DNA of 64,000 nt from positions 8,542,084 to 8,606,083 of the forward strand of contig NC_087072.1 of the NCBI RefSeq assembly GCF_026151205.1. Direction: 5' to 3'. Of the stretch, positions 2,210 to 17,197 are shown piece by piece. Source of the stretch: Bolinopsis microptera (Eukaryota; Ctenophora; Tentaculata; Lobata; Bolinopsidae). A model generated the notes under the pieces. It ran no database searches. It was not told the DNA's origin and was given only the letters and a program-made list of their open reading frames with translations. The translations under genes were made by a program, and so were the position numbers. Every line of letters begins with the position of its first letter. Positions within the stretch are counted from its first letter, which is position 1.

Positions 2210-4597
2210 TCAAGTTCTCTTTGGATTAATGAATGTTTGCTGAAATTGTTCTTTTTTACCCCCATGTTCCATACCAGTCCACATCAAAATACCTTTACTC
2301 TTCATGAACTTAACAAACTCGTGTAAAATGATGGACAACGGAAGTGCCAAGAAGATCATCCCACACATGATTGACACAGCAGCAACTAGTTTTCCAAGAC
2401 CGGATATCGGGACAATGTCCCCGTATCCAATGCCCGATAGGGTGACAACCGACCACCAAACTGCAGAAGGGATGGAGATTATATCAAGATTTCCAGCCAA
2501 ATGCTCAACATAATAAATCGCCGAACTGAAGACAAGTACCATCATTAGAAAAAGCTCAGAGAGGATCAAGATATCGGTAACATTGTTGCGAAGCAGGAAC
2601 TCAAAAATGAATTGCATCCGGGAAGAATGTCTCACCATTCTGAATATTCTGGTGATTCTTAGAGTTCGGATTATCCGCAGAACAACCAAGCTTTTCACGT
2701 CCCTGTTATCCAGAAGGGAGATAATCTGGGGGAGATAAAAGGGCATCAAAGATATAAGATCACATATATTGTTACCATTTGTTAGAAATGTCTTCACTCC
2801 TCGCATCGTGTTAGGACTGGGCCAGGCAATGAGTCGGAGACAAAAGTCAATGGAGAAAAATACTTGCGTGATTACTTTTACTGTTGCAATTATTTTGGAG
2901 TAAATTGTATTTTTGTTGGAAAGAGAATCTTCGAATCTTTCCTCAGATTCTAAGAATAAGACCACTACGGAGAAAATAACCAAGAAATAATCTAAAATCA
3001 TCCAAGCAGCAGAACAGTTTGAACTTTGAGGATTCGTTAAAAAGAGGTAGAGATTTAGTTTCCTCGATATCCAACGGCTTAGTTCAGGATCAAGCCCCTC
3101 TAACATTTTCTTTCCTTCTTCTTTTTGGGCCTCAACAGAGTCTTCAATGACATCTTCCTCCTCCTCTTTATTACTTTCTTCTACGTATTCTATCTTGAAG
3201 AAGTCTAACTCGAGTCGCAGCAGATCATCTATCTTGCGAAAATTATACGAACTTTGTCTTGAGATATCTTTGTTGGTCATGGTATGAACAAAATCAGCTG
3301 GGATATTGAGCAACCCCGTCTGATAGTATTGTAGGATATATTCAAACAAAAAACGGTTCCTGTCAAAGAAAAAGCACTGCAGATCCATAACATAGTAGTC
3401 AAACAGTTGATCCGAACCCAGAAGAGTGTCGGGATATTGCCTCAAAACTCCGTACTTCACGTAATAGTTCTCCCCTCCGACGTTAATGTTGATTATCTTA
3501 TCTAAATCTTGATTACTTGGTGACAACTGTATGATGTCTAATGGAAGTGGGAATTCCTCCAGTTTGGGGAGATCTTTTGAATCTGTTCCAGAGTTGCCTT
3601 TATGATTGTGGGAAGATATGTAGGGAGGGTTAGAGACGTGATCAATTTCTTCAAGGAACTGTTTTATAGTTTCCGAAACACTACCACTGTAAGTTCCTAG
3701 GAAGCTATCAAATTGATGGTTGGGACGAGCCGGAGATCCAATTTCCACCGGAAACGGTGTTCCAGTTTCCCGTCCTGATGACAATTTTAGCTGGAGGGTC
3801 TTGGGCCGAATTGGGCGCTCACCAAACTCACCAGATCGCACCAAAATTTTGTGGAGATTTGTATCAAACATTGGCGTATCAGAAGAACTATAATCTACCA
3901 ATCTGGAATATTTTAATGTTTCAATAGCAGAGTTGAATGAAAGTAAGTTGTATGAAGTTTCAGCAAAGATATTTTGGTGTTTTTTAGTCTTCTCACGAGC
4001 ATTATAATTCTTTTCCTTCCTCGAACTTGAAGGAATATTTTTAAGATCTTCAACTGGAGCAGCAACTCGTGATTCTGCACTGTGAAACACAGATTGAACC
4101 GACCCGGAAGAATTCGAGGACGTTTCGAGCGAATAATCTGTGGCAGTAAATCCAGTGGAGGGGGGACATGTTGTGGTCGCTGAGGACGGTATTTCTAAAT
4201 CTAACGAATATACCCGGCCGTTATCGCATTCCACTGCATTTCCAAACATAGTCTTTGAGGGGTTGACCAGGCTGACAGAAGATGATTCACATAAGAACAT
4301 CCCATTGTCTGTGATGAGTCCTCCCTCTGCAGTGGTGGCAGTGTTGGAGACACCATGTCTTACCGCAGGCCTTTTACGTGGTGTTTGCTCCAGTGGTTGT
4401 TGCTTTGGTGGTTGTTGCTCCGGTGGTGTATGCTTTGGTGGTGTTTGCTTCGGTGGTGTATGCTTCGGCGTAAGCTTTAAGCTTGTATTTCTGGTATTTG
4501 CGGTGGACCGGAAATGCATGATCAAACTATAATTCCCGAGTACCGAAACGGATAAAACTTCCAGGGAGATAAAAGAAGAAAATCTGTACGGGAACAA
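2210..4597 (-). CDS. Shaker-type voltage-gated potassium channel, intronless
   Basis: This is a 795-codon open frame on one exon. Residues 1-365 are a low-complexity leader with a Pro/Thr/Lys/Gln-rich run (about 43-76). Residues 369-470 match a Kv T1/BTB tetramerisation domain (INVGGENYYVKYGVL). Six membrane segments follow: S1 about 531-550, S2 560-592, S3 608-630, S4 638-657, pore 710-727, S6 736-760. S4 carries six arginines at every third position (641, 644, 647, 650, 653, 656). The filter reads S-G-I-G-Y-G-D (721-727) where most Kv channels have T-T-V-G-Y-G-D. The S6 hinge is A-L-P-L-S rather than P-V-P. By family it should be a plasma-membrane K+ channel acting as a tetramer. The start is uncertain; an in-frame Met at residue 27 is also possible. 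The long leader is unusual for the family. Confidence 0.9.
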   Translation of the reverse strand: MFPYRFSSFISLEVLSVSVLGNYSLIMHFRSTANTRNTSLKLTPKHTPPKQTPPKHTPPEQQPPKQQPLEQTPRKRPAVRHGVSNTATTAEGGLITDNGMFLCESSSVSLVNPSKTMFGNAVECDNGRVYSLDLEIPSSATTTCPPSTGFTATDYSLETSSNSSGSVQSVFHSAESRVAAPVEDLKNIPSSSRKEKNYNAREKTKKHQNIFAETSYNLLSFNSAIETLKYSRLVDYSSSDTPMFDTNLHKILVRSGEFGERPIRPKTLQLKLSSGRETGTPFPVEIGSPARPNHQFDSFLGTYSGSVSETIKQFLEEIDHVSNPPYISSHNHKGNSGTDSKDLPKLEEFPLPLDIIQLSPSNQDLDKIININVGGENYYVKYGVLRQYPDTLLGSDQLFDYYVMDLQCFFFDRNRFLFEYILQYYQTGLLNIPADFVHTMTNKDISRQSSYNFRKIDDLLRLELDFFKIEYVEESNKEEEEDVIEDSVEAQKEEGKKMLEGLDPELSRWISRKLNLYLFLTNPQSSNCSAAWMILDYFLVIFSVVVLFLESEERFEDSLSNKNTIYSKIIATVKVITQVFFSIDFCLRLIAWPSPNTMRGVKTFLTNGNNICDLISLMPFYLPQIISLLDNRDVKSLVVLRIIRTLRITRIFRMVRHSSRMQFIFEFLLRNNVTDILILSELFLMMVLVFSSAIYYVEHLAGNLDIISIPSAVWWSVVTLSGIGYGDIVPISGLGKLVAAVSIMCGMIFLALPLSIILHEFVKFMKSKGILMWTGMEHGGKKEQFQQTFINPKRT

Positions 4598-4940
4598 TTA
4601 TTGTTGTGAAAGTGCTATTAGATTGTGCAGCTGGGTTTCAGTCTTTTTCAGGCTGATTTGATTAACATGAAGCCGTATGCTGAGTCAGGGTGTACAAAAA
4701 TGTTTTAGACGAAAATACCTGGTCTTCTGAGTTCAGCTCATGACGTGTAGCTTTAGACAATAGTAGATTTGCGAAAATTGGAAAATTACATTGAAAGAAG
4801 TACGAACATCAGACATCAGCTAAAACATCATCTCTTATCTACTGCATATTTGATACTGATCGATCACCCAACCAATGAAGGATTTATTTTTGGGTTGTTG
4901 GGCTTGATTGCACGAGTATTCCAATTGATTTTTAAGATCT

Positions 4941-5174
4941 AGTTTCCACCGGAAACGGTGTTCCAGTTTCCCGTCCTGATGACAATTTTAGCTGGAAGGT
5001 CTTGGCCCGAATTGGGCGCTCACCTAACTCACCAGATCGCACCAAAATTTTGTAGAGATTTGTATCAAACATTGGTGTATCAGAAGAACTATCATCTACC
5101 AATCTGGAATATTTCAATGTTTTAATAGCAGAGTTGTATGAAGTTTCAGTAAAAATATTTTGGTGTTTTTTAGT
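4941..5174 (-). pseudogene. partial duplicate of Kv N-terminal coding region
   Basis: About 230 bp repeat the Kv coding segment at roughly 3741-3988 in the same orientation with a few percent divergence, and with a 15-bp deletion relative to the Kv copy between short direct repeats. The peptide corresponds to Kv residues about 205-285. It lacks the T1 domain and all membrane segments, so it is a duplicated fragment upstream of the gene. It is too short to be a gene by itself. Confidence 0.85.
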
Positions 5175-5179
5175 CGAAG

Positions 5180-5800
5180 CCTAAGACTAAGAGTGTTATA
5201 GGAACCGGGCCGACCGGTCTGGGAGTATGGCTTCCGGACCGGAAACGGCCGCGGCCGGATATCGATCAATTTTCCGGATATCAATATATTTTTCCGGACC
5301 GGTACCAGGTGTTAAGAAGAGGAAATTGCCGGAAAATTTGAATTAATCCTTATTTTACGGTTTTTATCAATCATAACATTAACATTAAAAGCAATGTGGA
5401 CTTATACAATAAGACAGTGTTTACAGCTGCAGAGGTCACTGGTCGTTTTGCTGTCCGGGCAGCAGTCACTGTCTGATATATTGTGCGAGCAGAACTAAAA
5501 ACGAGTTGTAATAAAATCAAAACGTATAGTTCAAACACTTACTACGCTTTGCGTAGCACAAATGTAGAGATTGTTCTAGAAATAAAATTAACACCAAAAC
5601 CCCCTAGCTCTCACAATTTCGTGGTGTCGATATAACCGAGGATAATGTCTATAATATTTTTAATGGCGTATGAATATAATGGCCTTTTATTTTAATCCTC
5701 GGTATAAGGGGAGTTAGCAACGGGTTTGCTTGCCACAATAAAGTAAGAACCCTCTGCTTGCAATGCTTATGAAAATTAGCATTGTTTTGTCATTGGTCTG
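5180..5800. other. repeat-like non-coding DNA
   Basis: It contains GC-rich palindromic CCGGACCGG / CCGGATATC motifs (5190-5330) and a small imperfect inverted repeat TATAACCGAGGATA (5631-5644) against ATCCTCGGTATA (5694-5705), MITE-like in spacing. No gene is seen. Confidence 0.4.
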
Positions 5801-5813
5801 GGTAGCTGCTTTG

Positions 5814-5891
5814 ACTCCTTTCTTTGTGTTAGTAACACAAAGACACAAAGAAAGGAGTTTAAAAGACCCGAAAAAATCTCAACGGGTCTTT
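5814..5891. repeat. two adjacent perfect hairpins
   Basis: The first hairpin has 15-bp arms (ACTCCTTTCTTTGTG at 5814-5828, complement at 5844-5858). The second has at least 9-bp arms (AAAGACCCG at 5862-5870, CGGGTCTTT at 5883-5891). They are separated by three bases. In an animal genome these are most likely MITE remnants or palindromes of unknown use. Confidence 0.7.
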
Positions 5892-5997
5892 AAAATTCGC
5901 TGACAGATTGCAAGCTACCATGAGTTCACTGTTCACTGAGAGCACTTTCTGGATGCCCCTTAGCAAGATGCTTCATATCTGGGGGATGGGGTACACT

Positions 5998-6145
5998 TCA
6001 CTTTTTTACACTATTTTACACTACACTTTTGCCTTTTTCGGTGTATGGTGTAGTAAAACGTGTAGTAAAAAAAGTACACTTTTTACACCATTTTACACAA
6101 TTTTACACTATTTTAAGCTATTTTACACTATTTTACACTTTTAAT
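5998..6145 (+). repeat. TTTTACACTA-type short tandem repeats, left block
   Basis: Irregular copies of TTTTACACTA / TTTTACACCA run up to the start of the LINE fragment. Similar copies resume after it at 7925-7990. Confidence 0.7.
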
Positions 6146-6159
6146 TAGTATTACAACTT

Positions 6160-7815
6160 CTCCTCTGTCCCATAACACCTGAAGAAGTTGGCCGTGCTGT
6201 TATGAAGCTGAAATCCGGTAGAGCGTGTGGCCCTGACGGTATACCTAATGAGCTAATGAAAGCTGCTGGATATCCCCTCCACTGTGAGTTGGCTAGGATC
6301 TATAATCTCTCCTTTGAGACCAACACATACATCCCAGCTATTGGAGAAGGTATCCTGACACCCCTTCAGAAGCCAGGAAAACCCCGAGGTCCGATAAAGT
6401 CTATCCGGCCCCTCACATTGCTAAATGGAACTAGAAAAGTCCTATCCCTCGTAGCGTTGAACAGAATCAATTACCACGTTGATATGTACACTGGACCTTG
6501 GCAGGCGGCATACAAGCAGGGTCGCAGTTGTGCTGACCTGGTATGGTCTCAGAGAATGTTGACATCAGTGGTTACCAGGCGCGAGTTTGAGTATAGTAAA
6601 ATCAACATTGACATGACCGCTGCGTTAAATACTATCCGCAGACAGACCATCATCAACCTCCTCATTGATGCAGGATGCTCTAGAGACGACATTCGCCTAG
6701 TTCAGTACCTCCTCTCTAATACAAAGCTCAAGGTGACGGTCAACAGATCTGAGTCTGGTGAATTTGTGATAAATATTGGCGCTTACCAGGGAGACAGTCT
6801 GGCAGGTAAAGTGTTTACATTGACCCTTGCCGGTGCCCTGAATCACATCAGAGCCGTGATCAGTGTCACGATTCCTAGACCGAACCCCCCAGTCTCTGAT
6901 AGAGGCCTCCCGTTAGAGTCCGCCTATGCTGACGATGCTGAGCTTCTGAGTGAAGATGGTCAGAGCCTGGTGAAGATACTAGAGATTGCCAGTGATATAC
7001 TAAAGGATTGGAGTCTCTTTGTTAACGAATCAAAGACGGTGTTTACAAGAGTGTATTTGGCAGATACAGATGCTTTAGATGCCCATGGCAATAAAATTAG
7101 AGGAGATGAAGAGTGGCGAGAGTCAGTGCTATTAGGATCAAAGCTCTGCTCAGAAAGAGATATTGTCAACAGACGCAACAAAGCCAATGTTGCCTTCTAC
7201 ACCTACAAGAAAGTCTGGTTGAATAGTTCTGTTCAGATCAGTGAGAGTAGAAAGCTGAAGCTGTACGAAGCTCTTGTCACTTCAGTGTTGTTGTATAACT
7301 GTAGCAGCTGGGCTGCTCCTGAAACCGTAATGGCATCTGTCGACGTTCTTCAAAGGAAGCATCTGAGACAGATAATCAACACCTATTGGCCTACGGTTAT
7401 CAGTAACGAGAATTTATATAAGAGATGTAATGTCAGACCCCTTACTGAAAGGATCAAGAAAGCAAGATGGAAGATGCTTGGGCACGTTCTCAGAAGCGGT
7501 GATGACACTCCCGCCTTCTTATCTTTCAGATTTGCATGTTTAGGATGTTTTGACTACAAAGGAAGGAGGGGCAGACCTCGTTCAAATTTATTTGATTTAT
7601 TATTAAAAGACATTATGACAAAACAAATTATTGTGATTGTAAATAAAAGATTTAGTTTAAGTAATTTCAACGATTTAGTGTACAAAGCTCATGATAGACG
7701 TCTTTGGAGAAGTTATGGGTGAGTCGAGACTACTCGGCCACTCGATTTTATGATTTAATTTCTATTATCTTGTGTTTGCTGTAAATAGTTGATTAATAAT
7801 AATAATAATTACACT
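6160..7815 (+). mobile_element. 5'-truncated non-LTR retrotransposon (LINE)
   Basis: The unit consists of a reverse transcriptase open frame, a short 3' untranslated part and an (AAT)n tail at 7795-7811, typical of target-primed insertion. No endonuclease domain is present, so the copy is 5' truncated. Its RT differs clearly from those of the two CR1/L2-like LINEs elsewhere in the window; I cannot name its clade. Confidence 0.8.
6202..7722 (+). CDS. LINE reverse transcriptase, C-terminal ORF
   Basis: The 506-codon frame starts inside the RT (GPDGIPNELMKAAG, RT region 2a/3). It keeps the motif A aspartate (NIDMTAALNTI), though the usual aromatic and second Asp of AFD are replaced. It keeps a region B-like AYQGDSLAGKVF and the motif C SAYADDAELL with both catalytic Asp. 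The C-terminal third (LYEALVTSVLLYNCSSWA and KARWKMLGHVLRSGDD) is the thumb/connection of this LINE type. The ORF is open to its stop, but the N-terminus and endonuclease are missing, so it cannot be autonomous. The annotated ATG is simply the first in frame. Confidence 0.8.
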   Translation: MKLKSGRACGPDGIPNELMKAAGYPLHCELARIYNLSFETNTYIPAIGEGILTPLQKPGKPRGPIKSIRPLTLLNGTRKVLSLVALNRINYHVDMYTGPWQAAYKQGRSCADLVWSQRMLTSVVTRREFEYSKINIDMTAALNTIRRQTIINLLIDAGCSRDDIRLVQYLLSNTKLKVTVNRSESGEFVINIGAYQGDSLAGKVFTLTLAGALNHIRAVISVTIPRPNPPVSDRGLPLESAYADDAELLSEDGQSLVKILEIASDILKDWSLFVNESKTVFTRVYLADTDALDAHGNKIRGDEEWRESVLLGSKLCSERDIVNRRNKANVAFYTYKKVWLNSSVQISESRKLKLYEALVTSVLLYNCSSWAAPETVMASVDVLQRKHLRQIINTYWPTVISNENLYKRCNVRPLTERIKKARWKMLGHVLRSGDDTPAFLSFRFACLGCFDYKGRRGRPRSNLFDLLLKDIMTKQIIVIVNKRFSLSNFNDLVYKAHDRRLWRSYG

Positions 7816-7921
7816 TAACAAAATTATCTTCTAACAATCTTCTTTTTTCCTATTATTTTCCTATCAGTCTTCACAGTTCACATAGTACATTTCCAAAGGT
7901 AAAACATACCTTTGGTGAGAA

Positions 7922-7995
7922 AAAATGTCACTTTTTTACACTTTTTAAGGCTATTTAGGCTATTTAAGGCTATTTTACACTACACTTTTTTTTGC
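7922..7995 (+). repeat. TTTTACAC-type short repeats, right block
   Basis: This stretch continues the repeat type that precedes the LINE, mixed with GGCTATTTA units. The two blocks suggest that the LINE inserted into, or carries with it, a simple-repeat region. Confidence 0.6.
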
Positions 7996-7999
7996 TGGA

Positions 8000-9190
8000 A
8001 CAGGACTGGAACTGGATTCAGCCGGATATCCGGTTATCATCATCATCATATGTTTTTTTATTCATATCTTTTTGATAATAAGCTATTGAATTTGAACAGT
8101 AGAATTAATAAAATTCGAAGTTAAACTCACCAGCTCATGCCCAATTCTCCGCACTCAACACTGCAGCACATAACAATAGGGGTCGTGGCTCTTTCCCAAA
8201 TCACCCTCGTAGCTTCATGGCCGTTACTCCTCTTCTTCTAGCGACATCATGGTCGCTGACTGGAGCCCTCTCCAAGGAACATGCCTTTTACTGCCATCCT
8301 CTGATTCATCCCAATATCAGCATGGAATTGATTTACATACTCCTGCACTGGTTACAATTTAACTTTGGTATTTAAAATATGCTTAAATTTTCTCAGATCT
8401 ATTTTGATAACTGTCAGACATGCAGTGAACCAGGCGACTTTTTAATATTGTACGAAATTTAGCAATCATCATGTTATTTCAGTAGGCTGTAAGTCAAAAT
8501 TAAAACAATTTTGTTAGTAGAAAATGAACTCACATAATCGGAAATTAACTACAAAACGTGCAAAACTCAAAAATTATTTATAAATTACAGAACGTGCAAT
8601 TTCATAGTTCACACTTCACAGTAGTATTAATAAAAGAGTTGGGATATTGTCACTGAAGTTTACGGAAATACATTATGTCGTTCGTGCATAAAATTTGAAT
8701 TATATTGTAAGCATAACGAGAGAAATCACTAAAGTAAATCAAGTATTAACTCTTATCTGCAATTCTACAATAACATTAAATAACAATATAACATATTAAT
8801 GCTAACTTTAGTTAGAACAATGGAATACAAAGGAGTAAGATCTTCAAAATTAATGAATAGCGTCAGTCATGTCAGTCTAATGTACCTAAAGTAAGTATAA
8901 GTATACCTAAATTCTCAAGACAATAAAAACTATTAAAGTTTATTTTAACTGGTTCCGGACTCTGCAGACTTATCTAATCTTCTTACAGTCCACCCGGGGC
9001 CACACAACGCCTGCTAGAAAATCTAGAACATTCTAGAACAATCTAGACGTTACATTCGATCAATACCACTACAATATCTAACATGATCAATGATATCCTT
9101 CATCGATATCTCGTGTTTCACATCTTAATTTCCAACTGAATAAATAGTCCCAACTAGCACTCTAAGGGAACAGCAGACCTGGTTGTCTCT
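8000..9190. other. non-coding; possible old copia remnant
   Basis: At 8160-8340 the plus strand can be read, with frameshifts, as a gag-to-protease-like stretch (RGRG then ADWSPLQG...). The minus strand near 9050 begins TGTAACGTCTAG, a plausible LTR start. Both readings are weak. Otherwise no gene is seen. The left part lies 3' of the kinesin gene. Confidence 0.2.
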
Positions 9191-9196
9191 TCCCCC

Positions 9197-9298
9197 TCAC
9201 ATCATGACGCAGGCCTTGCTACCAGCTGCTTTGCTGACTATAGGAGCTTCCCCGTCAACCCCCGTCATAGCGCCTACCAACTTCTGGGCTTTTATCAC
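9197..9298 (-). CDS. last kinesin exon encoding the CaaX-like tail
   Basis: The exon begins after acceptor AATACAG in phase 0, encodes 33 residues and stops at TGA (9197-9199). The last four codons, TGC GTC ATG ATG (9200-9211), give C-V-M-M. In known prenylated proteins a Cys four residues from the end, two aliphatic-like residues and terminal Met direct protein farnesyltransferase. Two lysines lie within nine residues upstream. The motif is seen directly; lipidation is inferred. Confidence 0.7.
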   Translation of the reverse strand: MIKAQKLVGAMTGVDGEAPIVSKAAGSKACVMM

Positions 9299-12200
9299 CT
9301 GTATTTTGGTTAGAGGTAAACTTCACAACAGATATAATTGACGTATAATCATCTATTATTAATAGCTTCAAATGATGAATTTGCTGTCACAGTTAAGTTG
9401 AAGGTATAATGAATTTAACCTGTGTAATAACAGTAGCTGCACTTCTCAGCATAGTTCCAGTGTTAAACGCAGCGGCAGATATAGCCCGGTGGTACGGTTC
9501 AAATTGTTGCTCCTCTGGCGGCTGAATCAACAAGTTATAAATTATCAGGCTGTATGGTCCATATGAACGGAGAACCTTCAATGATGAGAAATAATTTGGT
9601 TTCTGGAGTTGGTGTGTTCACAAAGTAATTTTATTACCTTTTTGCCCCAGGCTGTCACGATGCCTTGAATACGTTTTTCTTTCTTCGCCAGTATGTCGTT
9701 TCTTCGTTTCAAAACCAAGATTTCGGTTTTCAGTGCTGCTGATTCGTCAACAGTATCTGATAATAAAACGACTCTTATACACTATAAAATCCAAAGCTGC
9801 TTTTTGAGTGTTAAAATAAATATCCAGGAATCCTATTAACGAAGTCAGTGTACAGAGATTGGTCAACATTTATTCATGTCAGGCAGAAACCTAATATCAG
9901 ATTTAATGACAAATTATTTAAAACCGCCTAAAAAACTAACTTTTAGTGAGTTGACGGGTCAGAGCATTGGTTTTCATGTTCCCTGTCGTTTCTTCTCTTT
10001 GTCTCAGTTCTTTGGTTGTCAACTTTATGAGTTTAACATCGCTTTCTCTGTCCTCTTGACAACCGTACAGCAGGAATGTTATGCAAGAGTTCTCAAAGAA
10101 CTCCAGCGTTTCTTGGGTTACCTGATGAAAGAATTCCCACACATTACTATCAAAGGCGCAGACAAATAATTAAGAAAACAATTATGATTTTATTTCTTTC
10201 AGCAGCAGGGCGGTTATGAGCATGCACAAATATCCCTCTTTAACGCGGTTAGGCAATTAAATGAGGTGAATATGCAATTTCCAAATCAGTTCGTAGGGAG
10301 TCTTCAATTATTATTACCAGACAAATTGGTTATACTTTGAGGGATCCTCGATCGGTATAAATTGAGTTGCAAAAGATGGCCGGATCTTGCATTAACCTGT
10401 AACCACTCCACTCCACTCAGAAATGCAAAAATTAATGAAGTTTGCAGAAATTATAGCAACTATATAATATTACCTTGTCAATTTTAACAACTCGACTGTG
10501 ATTGAACTCCGGTGCAAGAGATTGGTTGACGGTTGGGGTGACGGTATACTCTTCATCACCGTCTATCTTGTACTTGATGAAGCTACCAACGTTAAATCTG
10601 CTGTCACGTATCTCACACGACTTCATCGTAACCTATGAAGGATGTGAATTGGTATTTTTACGTGTGCATGCATAGCAGGAAGTGTAAAACGACAAAAATG
10701 TATAGATTGACCACCGACTAAACAACAAATAAGAACAAATTATCTGTATATACTATATAATAAGTTCAAAAAGAGGTACTTCTAACTTTGTAATGATAAG
10801 GTTTGCCAAGGAGCTCATTTGAATCCTCCACAAAATACTCCTCTCCCATGCACTTCCCCTCTTCGTCACACGGTGAGATGTTTACAAACATTTGACCCTG
10901 ATCCTCTCCCTGATGAATGCTTTAATCACATACACAATCACTAATGAACAATGGCTGATTTTAAGGTATGGATGCTCAACTAAGTTAACTTTTTAAAAAT
11001 ATTAAAATATACAATATGTCTAAAATCGCTTGGATAAAAAGCATAAATATGGACAGGGAATACCTTGTAATCTGTAATCAAGATAGGATCGTCCATGTCA
11101 ATACCGTAACCGAGCGCCTGAAGAAACGCACTGGATGTCCCGATAAGGACTTCGCAAGGCGGGTCCCAGAATGGATCTTGGTCTTCGGGCATATCTTTCA
11201 AAGTTTCATCCCCATCAAGATTTCTCTGGTACATATCTTGCATGAGATATCTCCTGTTCATAAATTTGCCCCGTTCCCAAAGCCAGGTATTTCCGTTTAG
11301 GAGATTCTTCATCTTTACCATCACTCTGTAAGATTGATATCTATTTCCAAGTTAACGACCAGCTTTAAAATAAAAAACATGTATTTGTTACGATTTCTTT
11401 GGTTCAAGTGCATCATTTAAAAAATAGATATGAAATAATTTGTGCACAGTCAAAACGCTCACTTTGTTCCTTTGGATCCTTCTGTGGGGTTAGCTGCACC
11501 AGAAATGAGTATCACTTCAAACGATCTGAGAAGTTTTTCGTTAGAACAAGAAGCCTTTAATGCGTAAAGTTCTAATGACGAAGTTGCATTCATGATTAGT
11601 GATGCATCTTGATTAATCTGCACGATGTTTAGCCAGCTAAACTGTAACACGAGACAAGGTGGCCGCGCCGCGCACTATATTTTCGTTCAAAATATGCACT
11701 AGCTGCTGAAAATCGTGCTTTAAATAGTACCTTGGCAATAAAGCGTACGTTAATTTCACTCTGTACAGCTTATATTTGTGCCTTAAGGCTAATAAAATCC
11801 ACAAGCATGAAGGGTCTATGAATATTGCATGATAATAACAATTTGACACAAATAAAGGTATTGTAGCAGACTGACTTGTGTTTATTGAGCTCTTCTGATA
11901 TAGCGTTACTCTCACTGACCATCGGAAGTAATTCCAACACTTGCTCTTGTGCCAGCTGTTGTTCTGAAAAAAAGCGGGGTATTTATCATTATCTTCTTAT
12001 CTTTCCTTCATTTATCATTGAATCTATATATGGAAGACGATACAAGAAGTTTAAATTCCAGCACTTTCAAAAGATTGCAGGAAAAGAATGGAATGTTAAC
12101 AGTTAAGGAGGTTAAGGAACACAGCGAAAATTACCCTTAGATAGTTCGCCGTCAGCACCCGTCTGAAACCCTTTTGCTTGAGCGATTTCCTTCTGAGCAA

Positions 12201-15200
12201 ACTCCCAGTCGATTGAGTCGGGCGTTCCCTCGGCTGTTTCCTTGTTGACGGGGTCGTAGTACACATACATGTGATTAGAACCGAACAAGATGCGGTCCTG
12301 ATGCATTAGCGTTTTGTCTCCATTCAGGGTCTGTCCATTCACCTGCAACCACGTTTTATGAAATAAATGATACTGATTACTGGCGACTTGTTTGATTGCT
12401 GTGCTCAAATAGTTTGCTGAGTGTTGAGTGTTGACCTATAATTATCTGGTAGTGTGTTTATAGTAACTGCTAACCTTTGTTTTGGCGCCCACTACACCAG
12501 GTCTCAGGATTACTGTCCCTGTATCTCCGTCTCGAGCGAATATAGCGTGAGATTTCTGGATGCTAAGTCCACTAAGACATATCCCTGGAATGTTCTCACC
12601 GTCCTTACGCCCCACTATGTTTTCACCTTAGAGAGTAATAATATTATTAGTGCAAATCAGAAACTAATTTTCTAATCAAGATACTGTAGGAGATACTGTA
12701 GGAGGACCGTAATATTTTGTGTTAAGTGTTGTCAGACTTGGATCCCTCCCTGTTCACAAGTAAATAAATATTATAATAGAATGAAACATGAAGTGTAAGT
12801 CACCTGGTTGTATGAGATGATGAATAACTCCAGATAACGCGTTATCTTCGTTAAGATTAGTTATGTGAGGGGTGTTATCTTTCTCTTTCTCTTTCTCTAA
12901 CACTTTCAGTTGGTCCTCGTTAAACTGCTGCTGTGCTATCGCTGTCTAAATATGTACTGTTAGTTAGTTAGTTAGTTAGTAACTTAATTAGTTAGTTAGT
13001 TAGTTAGTCACTACCAGTTAGTTAGTTAGTATTGTATTATCTGGGATTCCTTACATTATCCGTTCAGTCTAAAAGTAAATTAATGAAATAAACCCAATAA
13101 ATGGATATCTAATATCTCATGGGGACTGTAATCAGAATACACGAAACTTTTCAAATTTTAAGATTATCAATGTACAGAAATTTGCAATGTTATTAAGTTA
13201 TTATTAAGTTTTGTCATACCCTATCTTCACCAGACATCTCAGCCATAGCTGACGCGTTAGCCTCAAGTTGAGCTCTTATTTCCTCCTCCATTTGTTTGCG
13301 CATCGCAGCTGCCTCTTCAGGTGTCATAACTGCAGCTCCTACGAAAATCCAATTTACTAGTACTATGATTAAATAACCAATCTCGTCTACCAGTCGAATC
13401 AAGCATCAAAATCATTTAAATGGAAATAAATACATAAAATTCAAGATTTATGTTCATTGGGCAACCCCAACCATTACAAGATAATAGAAGAAGTATAGGA
13501 GATCAATTCTCACCAGGTGCGGCTGCAGGAATTTCACCACCCAGTGCCTTCTTTAACTTATCATTCTCTTCCTTAAGTTCCCTGATCAACTTATCCATCG
13601 GGTTCTCATTAACAACAGCCTTGTTCTTAATTTGCTTGGCTCTGTCGGCATAACGAAGAGTACCGAGAGTTTCGTCGTAGTTGATGTCAGCGGGAGATAA
13701 CGCGGCTATCATGATAGTTTTACTGTTTCCTCCGAGCGCGTTTTGAAGAAGCTTTGTTAGCACTGAGTCTCGATATGGAACCATTATCTTCTTTTTACCA
13801 GACGAAGCATCAGCCAGAGCCTGGAAATGGTGTTCTCAGTTTTAGATTTAATTAATCTTTTAATAAATTTTCGTAATCACTTTTCTTTAGAAATGATACA
13901 TGATTTGTAAAATATATGGATCTATTCCCAATCCCAAACCGAAAAAAAAAACATGTATACATTTTATAGTACTAAAACGAACCGATATAACGTTGCCGAG
14001 AGCGGATAGAGATTTGTTGATGTTGGCTCCCTCCTTGAGCCGGTCTCCAGTTGCCCCCGTACTTCCCGCTCTTTCTGATCCCGCTAAATCTACCAGGTTT
14101 ATTATACTTGTCCTTTTAGTCTCCTCCCCTACCTCGTTCTTTTTTATCTGATGGCAGGCAATTAACATGTGCTATTTTCATACATTTGATAATTGGGAAT
14201 TAATCAGTCTGTAATTATAAGTAAAGTTCTTATGTCTTAGAAACAAATACAAATGAGTAGGTTCTACTATTTAAACTCAGATCAAGTGCAACAATAATTG
14301 CCCTGTACTAAAGGTTTTAAGCATGTAAGAGAAAAAGAGGAAATACCTGGTCAAACTGTATGGTGACAAGAGTATGAGCTCTGGAGCTAGTAGCGTTCAT
14401 AGCAGTAGCAGCCACCGTTCTGTTAGAAGTACCCTCATCCATCTTAGCCTCTATAGCTTTATAGCTGCCCACTACCTGCTTAGTTAGTCCTTGTACGTAG
14501 AATGCTCCGATTGAGGGGTTTTGTCGAACCTGAACAAGTTAAATGCTAAACAAATGATCTAGAACTGAAGCCTGGTGAGTAGAAGATTTGAATCTGGTAA
14601 AATGAAAGCAGTTCACGTGTTTACTTTTACACTGTAAATATCAACTCAGAATATCTACCCAGTAAACTTACAGGAAGACCACCCTTAGGATTGTTCTTGA
14701 TAAGAAGATCTCTGACACACTCATTGTAGATCTCCAGCATGGAGAAAGAGACACAGTGCTTCACGTTGGGATCCGTGTTACTCTCTGTTGTCTTGAACAA
14801 CTCGTCACATGTTATAGGTACGATACCCCTGTGAGTTGAAATTGTTTTGTAGGAATGTGATATTTAATGGAGTACTGAAAAATGGTAGGCGAATAAGACA
14901 TGTTGATTTTAGAACCTTTTTAATTTAAGATATAACTTGGATATGAAAATGAAAGGTTTACTACGATCTAGAATATGCTTACTTGTTGGGTCCATAACCA
15001 ACCATAGAGTAAGATTTTCCCGCTCCAGTCTGACCGTAAGCAAAAAGAGAGGTGTTGAAACCTGCCGAGAGTTTATTTTACTGCGAGCTTAAGTTAAAGT
15101 ATTATTAGTACTCTAGTAAATTTGTTTTACTGAGACAAAAGAAACAATATGAGAGCATAAACATTAAGTTGTATGTTGTAACATGTCGATTGGTTTCTTC

Positions 15201-17197
15201 CTGACTCTTTGCGGCTATTAGATCGTCTTTATTAATTAATGTGATCAGAAAAAATAACAAAATTTATTCAAAAGTCGAAAGTTTCATCGCTACGTCATTA
15301 AATAGCCACATCGGGGAGCCATGCATGACACCACCTCAACTAATTTCTCGAACAAAACCTCATCCCCTGTTATTTACGACAGATGACGCAATTAATTAAT
15401 TAATTAGGTCACTTAAAATAGGGTTTAATCAAGGCTTTGAATGATATTCAATGATAAAGTTTAAACGTTTAATCTATTTCTGGGATACAGTGAGATGTAG
15501 CGTATGTGACATATTAGGTATGTCCCCCAAGAAGAGCCACGGTACAACGATATTTCTCTTAACAGGGGCTCCCCCAAAAATTCCCTAACGTCTGAAGTAA
15601 TGAAGAGGTTTAGTTACAACAATTCCAATGACGTGGTTTAATCCGATCGGTCACCACGTGTCATGTGACCGAATTAACGGCAGCTGAGTGGTCAACGGGG
15701 CAGTGTTTACTAAACACATTCTAATACGTTAAGGTGAGTATTATGGTATTAGATGCCGTTGCCATGGTAACGTAACGCCATGTAATATAGTTAGGATATA
15801 ACAAATGGGAGACTGCTGGTTTTTAGCCTTTCTTTGGTGTCTGCCAAAATACATCTAGTTTACATTAACTTATTACCTCTGGCATAATTTCAAGGGCTGA
15901 TTACATTATATCTCGATCAAATGAAGTAATCTAGGTTCGCACAACATCATAACTCCCATACATTTTGCTATAAAATGAGCATATGATTCGAGAAGTAATG
16001 AATATAATCAGTTCATTATCATTATCACACATAACGTCATAATACATCATATCTAACAAAAGCTCGTAAAAAGGGGCAACACCCCACATTCAGTATTTTG
16101 GCACATTACAGACTGAAAGCTCTAATAATCTATGAAGCTTTTATCCAGATCAATTTTCATTGTTATGTGTCTCCATGGTAACGGTAATTGCTACATTATA
16201 CAGCTAATGGTTGGTAAGGTAGGATAAACACGTGTTTACAAATGTACATGACTAATGGCCATATCCGAAGTAGACTATAATTGGACAGTGGGTGAATAAT
16301 TAGTGAAGATAAAAATAGGAAACCAGATCCTAGTTATGCGTGTCGTTTATGACTAGAAAAATGGGGCATGTAAATTATATTACGATGGACAATAACAATG
16401 ATCTACCCTGTCCTCTGCCTATTAGCGTCAGTTTAAACAGTGCGCTGCAGCCTGCAATACTGCTGTCGTACCACAATGAACAATATCATGTATTGATTAA
16501 ATGCAGTATCCTACCTTCAAAGGCATTGTTCAGAACACCCTGCCCCAAATCGTTGAACACCATACGCTGTGAAGCGTAGTTGCTACCAGCAGCTGGTATG
16601 CTTATTCCTTCATCATCCATCTCAAACCCATCGTGAGATTGGTATGAGTAGTCAAACGTGAACACCTTTGGTTCAACACCTGTAAAATAATATTTAGATA
16701 TTTTGTGTAAGAGGCCACAAGAAATCAGGACTACGGGCTCTACTAGAATGAGATAATAAGTAAGTTAATTGAGTTGTTAATTTAATCAGAAGTGTTTAAC
16801 ACGAACTTTTGTCTTCCAAGTTGGTGATGGTTGTCTGCTTGCCTTGCATCTTTATACAACATTTTGAGCCTCTATCGATCTCCCTGGATGAGACAATTTC
16901 AAAAATTAGTTGCTATTTCTTATTATTATGTAATGATGGAAGTACAGCAAGGATTAAATGTGATTTTTCTTTTGTTAATTAAAAATTAGTAAGGAAAATG
17001 TATGTAAAAACAAATTACCTCCCATTGAAGGGACGAACCCTAACAGCAACTTTGACCCTGAAATGTGAAATGTGAAAATACTGACTTGATCTTATTATGT
17101 TCAATTATGATATTGACAATTTTGAATATGTGATAACAAGTAAATTATATTGCTCGAATGGATTTTTAGTGAAAAAATGTACTTACGATTCAGCCAT
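9197..17197 (-). CDS. kinesin-3 family motor, KIF28/KLP-6-like, with C-terminal CaaX motif (22 coding exons)
   Basis: Exons in reading order (minus): 17197-17187, 17057-17019, 16883-16807, 16679-16515, 15061-14983, 14828-14672, 14529-14347, 14147-13983, 13820-13514, 13335-13220, 12945-12804, 12626-12475, 12342-12135, 11963-11876, 11525-11463, 11325-11064, 10909-10787, 10632-10474, 10121-9941, 9756-9638, 9521-9420, 9298-9197. Every intron is GT-AG, phases join throughout, and the sum is 3000 nt (999 aa plus stop). The motor starts [16 protein letters not shown]-loop GQTGAGKS 107-114; switch I NATSSRAH 221-228; switch II DLAGSE 257-262. A neck and coiled coil (about 370-433), an FHA domain (459-560) and a KIF1-type domain (from about 630) follow. 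It should walk on microtubules using ATP. The tail ends [24 protein letters not shown] and [15 protein letters not shown] favour KIF28/KLP-6 over KIF1A. Least certain: the 10121 acceptor and the last two exons. Confidence 0.88.
12960..13033. repeat. (TTAG)n microsatellite in a kinesin intron
   Basis: Irregular runs of GTTA/TTAG lie in the intron between the exons ending at 13220 and starting at 12945. The unit is a tetranucleotide, so it is not a telomeric repeat. Confidence 0.9.

Follow-up and report, generated by a model that had tools for sequence, protein, structure and literature searches.

Does a KIF28/KLP-6-like kinesin-3 of the ctenophore Bolinopsis carry a functional lipid attachment signal at its C-terminus? 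The question is raised by the last exon of a gene predicted in the window, that is, the whole 64-kb stretch of DNA analyzed here, whose translation closes with the CaaX box C-V-M-M. This end is a sound observation; a prenylated KIF28 motor is a testable hypothesis built upon it. We assign a probability of about 0.5 to the reading that the gene encodes a ctenophore KIF28/KLP-6 kinesin-3 with a C-terminal extension ending in a functional farnesylation signal.

Gene model of the kinesin

The gene lies on the minus strand, and its relevant features are listed with their positions in the window.

9197..17197, minus strand: KIF28/KLP-6-like kinesin-3 gene, predicted from genomic sequence; 22 exons, 1000 aa
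11463..11525, minus strand: exon 15, 63 nt, revealed by a gap in the KLP-6 alignment
9638..9756, minus strand: exon 20, encoding a basic, amphipathic helix-like stretch; the KLP-6 match ends inside it
9420..9521, minus strand: exon 21, 102 nt, phase 0-0; its skipping leaves the CaaX frame intact
9197..9298, minus strand: exon 22 (last), 33 codons plus stop; end K-A-C-V-M-M, with Cys as residue 997
9197..9211, minus strand: CaaX box C-V-M-M plus stop codon (TGA)
8939..8944, minus strand: AATAAA poly(A) signal, 252 nt beyond the kinesin stop codon

The introns of the rebuilt gene are GT..AG throughout, and its 22 exons join in a single frame with a single stop, giving 1000 codons plus stop. The original prediction had counted 999 codons and was off by one, which leaves the C-terminal end K-A-C-V-M-M unaffected; the in-frame close of the exon chain at these residues, which it had also described, was reproduced by the exon at 9298-9197 (minus strand) and by the rebuilt gene. 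A model of 979 aa without the exon at 11525-11463 was dropped, since it was about 20 residues short in comparison with C. elegans KLP-6 and the 63-nt exon fills this gap.

Relationship to KLP-6 and KIF1A

The best relative among solved structures is C. elegans KLP-6 (PDB 7wrg; E 7.3e-206, 690 bits), which matches residues 3-916 of the Bolinopsis kinesin. Within this range the motor, FHA, MBS and MATH regions all align, and the order of kinesin-3 motor, FHA, MBS (KIF1B) and MATH is colinear between the two proteins. Kinesin, Microtub_bd, KIF1B and FHA were detected by Pfam over the cut-offs in the 979-aa model, with Kinesin_assoc under its cut-off; the MATH region gave no Pfam MATH match in the kinesin and is assigned from the KLP-6 alignment alone. 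The KIF28/KLP-6-like identity originally proposed is supported by the pairwise KLP-6 match together with the Pfam Kinesin, FHA and KIF1B domains, and the orthology is to be understood as pairwise, because it was derived from comparison with solved structures and not from a tree. The motor-domain stretch SHDGF... also aligns with KLP-6, and KIF1A is gapped there.

The kinesin-3 motor and neck align with KIF1A/UNC-104 as well (399 bits), the KIF1A chains compared being motor-neck constructs that cover the motor and neck only. KIF1A/UNC-104 reaches lipid via a C-terminal PH domain, whereas no PH domain was found in the Bolinopsis kinesin. Its absence, noted in the original prediction, holds for Pfam searches of the 979-aa model (E up to 0.01) and of eight downstream frames.

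The KLP-6 structure comprises motor, FHA, MBS and MATH domains in a monomeric state, with residues 842-928 unmodelled (PMC9314371). KLP-6 ends at residue 928 and has no match to the 84-residue CVMM tail, the last 29 residues of KLP-6 lying outside the comparison. The 84 residues after 916 may be either an extension or a region too diverged for alignment.

The CaaX end and its chance rate

A CaaX box with terminal Met is present as predicted: C-a-a-X stands at the extreme C-terminus, and X is within M/S/Q/A/C. Its residues at a2 and X are canonical ones. The motif is preceded by a small-residue linker that is probably flexible, and is the sole CaaX-like tetrapeptide of a protein that has 13 Cys. 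No second signal was found beside it, the last 20 aa having a net charge of 0 and the last 25 aa no other Cys. Farnesylated membrane proteins usually need such a signal, in the form of a polybasic run or a palmitoylated Cys. With a neutral tail end and no second Cys, the lipid by itself would give only a weak hold on the membrane. A basic amphipathic stretch sits about 70-90 residues upstream of the CaaX end, in exon 20, where 18-residue windows from 908-918 carry a net charge of +2 to +5.

Searches with the tail yielded no relatives among solved structures, even at an E cut-off of 10, and no further copy in the Bolinopsis genome, where the three matches were the kinesin's own exons. No KIF28 relative was found in viral contigs. 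A membrane-spanning tail was also considered and rejected, the highest 19-residue hydropathy being 0.98.

The chance rate of such an end was estimated from 2000 stop-terminated frames of at least 20 codons in the six frames of the 64-kb window. Cys occupies position -4 in 71 of these 2000 frames. The loose pattern C-[not P]-[VILMT]-[MSQACT] was found in 7/2000 frames and the strict pattern C-[VILMAST]-[VILM]-[MSQAC] in 3/2000, the CVMM frame being among them in both cases, so that CaaX-like ends make up 0.15-0.35% of the frames in the window. An accidental CaaX-like end is unlikely for one given gene and is not rare proteome-wide: at one gene per few hundred, an ordinary-sized proteome would contain tens of accidental ends. 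True prenylated proteins are similar in number, which leaves roughly even odds for the farnesylation reading.

A coincidence in an unconstrained tail, either not prenylated in the cell or functionless, is the alternative that survives best, and we regard it as a serious competitor though not a probable one. It agrees with the low but finite rate per frame, with a tail unmatched in KLP-6 and in solved structures, and with the neutral tail end, but it leaves to accident the canonical residues at a2 and X, the probably flexible linker, and the lack of any other CaaX-like tetrapeptide among 13 Cys. Moreover, an exposed C-terminal CVMM would be expected to be a substrate of farnesyltransferase.

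Prenylation machinery in the genome

The genome (265 Mb, 232 contigs) was searched by profiles, reading exon by exon. A total of six PF00432 matches were found at three places, interpreted here as three prenyltransferase genes of the beta type. Farnesyltransferase beta is among these: it aligns with the human enzyme at E 3.5e-135 and shares with it 204 of the 387 residues aligned. Of 20 positions checked in the zinc, lipid and peptide sites, 19 have the same residue as in human; D297, C299, H362, S99, W102, W106, H149, A151 and Y361 are among those kept, in what we take to be the numbering of these sites, and position 152 is Thr instead of Pro. An exon of the farnesyltransferase alpha subunit, which is also part of geranylgeranyltransferase I, was found with alpha entries as its best matches. 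Among the enzymes acting later, Ste24 (E 8e-136) and an ICMT exon are present. RCE1 was not found by the PF02517 genome search, and this miss is no evidence of loss, since the search reads exon by exon.

GMP_PDE_delta family matches were located at two places. In addition, 12 matches were obtained for PF08016, the profile of polycystin-type channels, the class to which the worm cargo of KLP-6 belongs (PMC12646758). Farnesylation of the predicted kinesin tail is plausible on the sequence evidence. The gene model, the CaaX end and the presence of farnesyltransferase, Ste24 and an ICMT exon in the genome count for a farnesylation signal; the failure of PF02517 to find RCE1, the Thr at farnesyltransferase position 152, the neutral tail and the chance rate count against it.

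Comparison with known farnesylated kinesins

CENP-E, named in the original prediction as the precedent for a farnesylated kinesin, stands as such but not alone, as Kinesin-CaaX of T. brucei is farnesylated too (PMC3206815). The CaaX box of CENP-E occurs in two distant eukaryotic groups, which has been inferred to reflect likely independent gains (PMC10630089). The Bolinopsis protein resembles CENP-E in being a kinesin with a C-terminal CaaX box, which in CENP-E is farnesylated. However, CENP-E is mitotic and its lipid serves the kinetochore corona, whereas the Bolinopsis protein resembles kinesin-3 and has FHA and KIF1B domains. Kinesin-CaaX, which was found to be farnesylated by radiolabelling and becomes more diffuse without its CaaX box, shares with the Bolinopsis kinesin an N-terminal motor and a CaaX-type end (CVIM there, CVMM here), but it is restricted to kinetoplastids and lies outside the known kinesin families according to its authors (PMC3206815).

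The original prediction also held prenylation to be undescribed for KIF28/KLP-6, and in agreement with this no prenylated kinesin-3 or KIF28 turned up in searches of open-licence PMC papers; in the one paper found there that has CaaX alongside KIF28 or KLP-6, the term refers to INF2. A prenylated kinesin-3, if true, would add another independent origin of CaaX kinesins to those of CENP-E and the kinetoplastid protein, and a lipidated KIF28 tail would show that kinesins can gain lipid attachment repeatedly.

Possible function of a farnesylated tail

If the signal is functional, farnesyltransferase would modify Cys997 in the flexible tail, after which VMM would be removed and the Cys methylated. 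As the tail end is neutral and has no other Cys, the lipid is expected to need another contact, such as the cargo domains, the basic stretch or a lipid-binding partner. The farnesyl group may act jointly with the basic stretch (about 905-925) and the MBS/MATH-like region, and through these joint contacts a motor that is monomeric on its own would be held and concentrated on cargo membrane or on a partner that binds the lipid. The lipid might in this way provide the clustering for which other kinesin-3s have a PH domain and coiled coils.

KLP-6 is described as monomeric even if unlocked and as needing further factors, of which post-translational modification is one suggestion; artificially dimerised KLP-6 moves processively, and the natural dimerising factor is still sought (PMC10945585). 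If the tail is lipidated in this early-branching animal, it would offer a directly testable solution to the dimerisation puzzle of KLP-6/KIF28 for its lineage. A stronger version can be offered tentatively, namely that in ctenophore KIF28 a farnesylated tail extension replaces both the PH domain and the dimerising coil, and that lipid clustering on cargo, possibly a ciliary polycystin-bearing membrane, makes the monomer processive. We consider this version rather doubtful. A review cites a later preprint in which full-length KLP-6 is processive as a monomer (PMC12646758), and this speaks against the need for clustering.

The farnesyl group could instead serve protein-protein binding or ciliary shuttling of the PDE6-delta type, and not a membrane anchor. 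This explanation, which overlaps with the preferred one in taking the tail to be farnesylated, seems somewhat unlikely to us. In CENP-E, farnesylation favours the interaction with proteins of the fibrous corona (PMC10630089), and both the GMP_PDE_delta family matches at two genome places and the lack of a polybasic or second Cys signal beside the CaaX box fit such a role; the basic stretch further upstream in the kinesin argues against it.

Support for the 3' end of the gene

The preferred reading of a functional farnesylation signal presupposes that the last exon is correctly placed. Splice acceptors were scored with a matrix built from the other acceptors of the same kinesin gene. The acceptor at 9298 scored 5.96, the top of 17 AGs scored in 9400-9190 (runner-up 3.28), and a score as high is reached by 4.7% of minus-strand AGs in the window. 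The donor preceding exon 22 is ordinary (4.63; gene range 0.85-9.88). The exon is open in one frame only, and retention of the last intron would give predicted C-terminal residues other than those of the CVMM exon. Among 11 minus-strand frames of at least 50 aa in 4598-9196, eight were scanned with Pfam; these showed neither a kinesin tail nor a PH domain and gave weak sub-cut-off hits only. The last exon of the predicted kinesin model thus looks real. A wrong 3' end, with the real kinesin ending otherwise, is very improbable: the model was built from genomic sequence and exon 21 has the lowest acceptor score in the gene (0.52), but the acceptor of exon 22 tops its intron, the phase fits, a poly(A) signal is present, and no kinesin-tail or PH domain was detected in the eight scanned downstream frames.

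Neighbouring genes and other genome features

Downstream of the kinesin and on the same strand, an apparently intronless voltage-gated K+ channel with BTB_2 and Ion_trans domains is encoded by a single frame of 795 codons (window 2210-4597, minus strand). The N-terminal half of this frame recurs in part at 4932-5311 (minus strand) as a diverged copy, with the common stretch SSSDTPMFDTNL.KILVRSGE.GERPIR, which suggests a partial tandem duplication. Between the kinesin and the channel, a retroelement reverse-transcriptase frame of 525 codons (RVT_1) is located at 6145-7722 (plus strand).

Elsewhere in the genome, kinesin motor exons were found in pairs with identical scores (C11:11303567 and C11:11341653; C13:4982550 and C13:5070304), one pair being inverted, which points to recent kinesin gene duplications. 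The glutamate-receptor ligand-binding domain PF10613 gave 32 genome matches, ten of which lie in open frames longer than 900 codons that are possibly intronless genes. One of the glutamate receptors is identical at 188 of 260 residues (72%; 408 bits, next unrelated row 244) to the ligand-binding domain of ML032222a, whose prefix presumably denotes Mnemiopsis leidyi.
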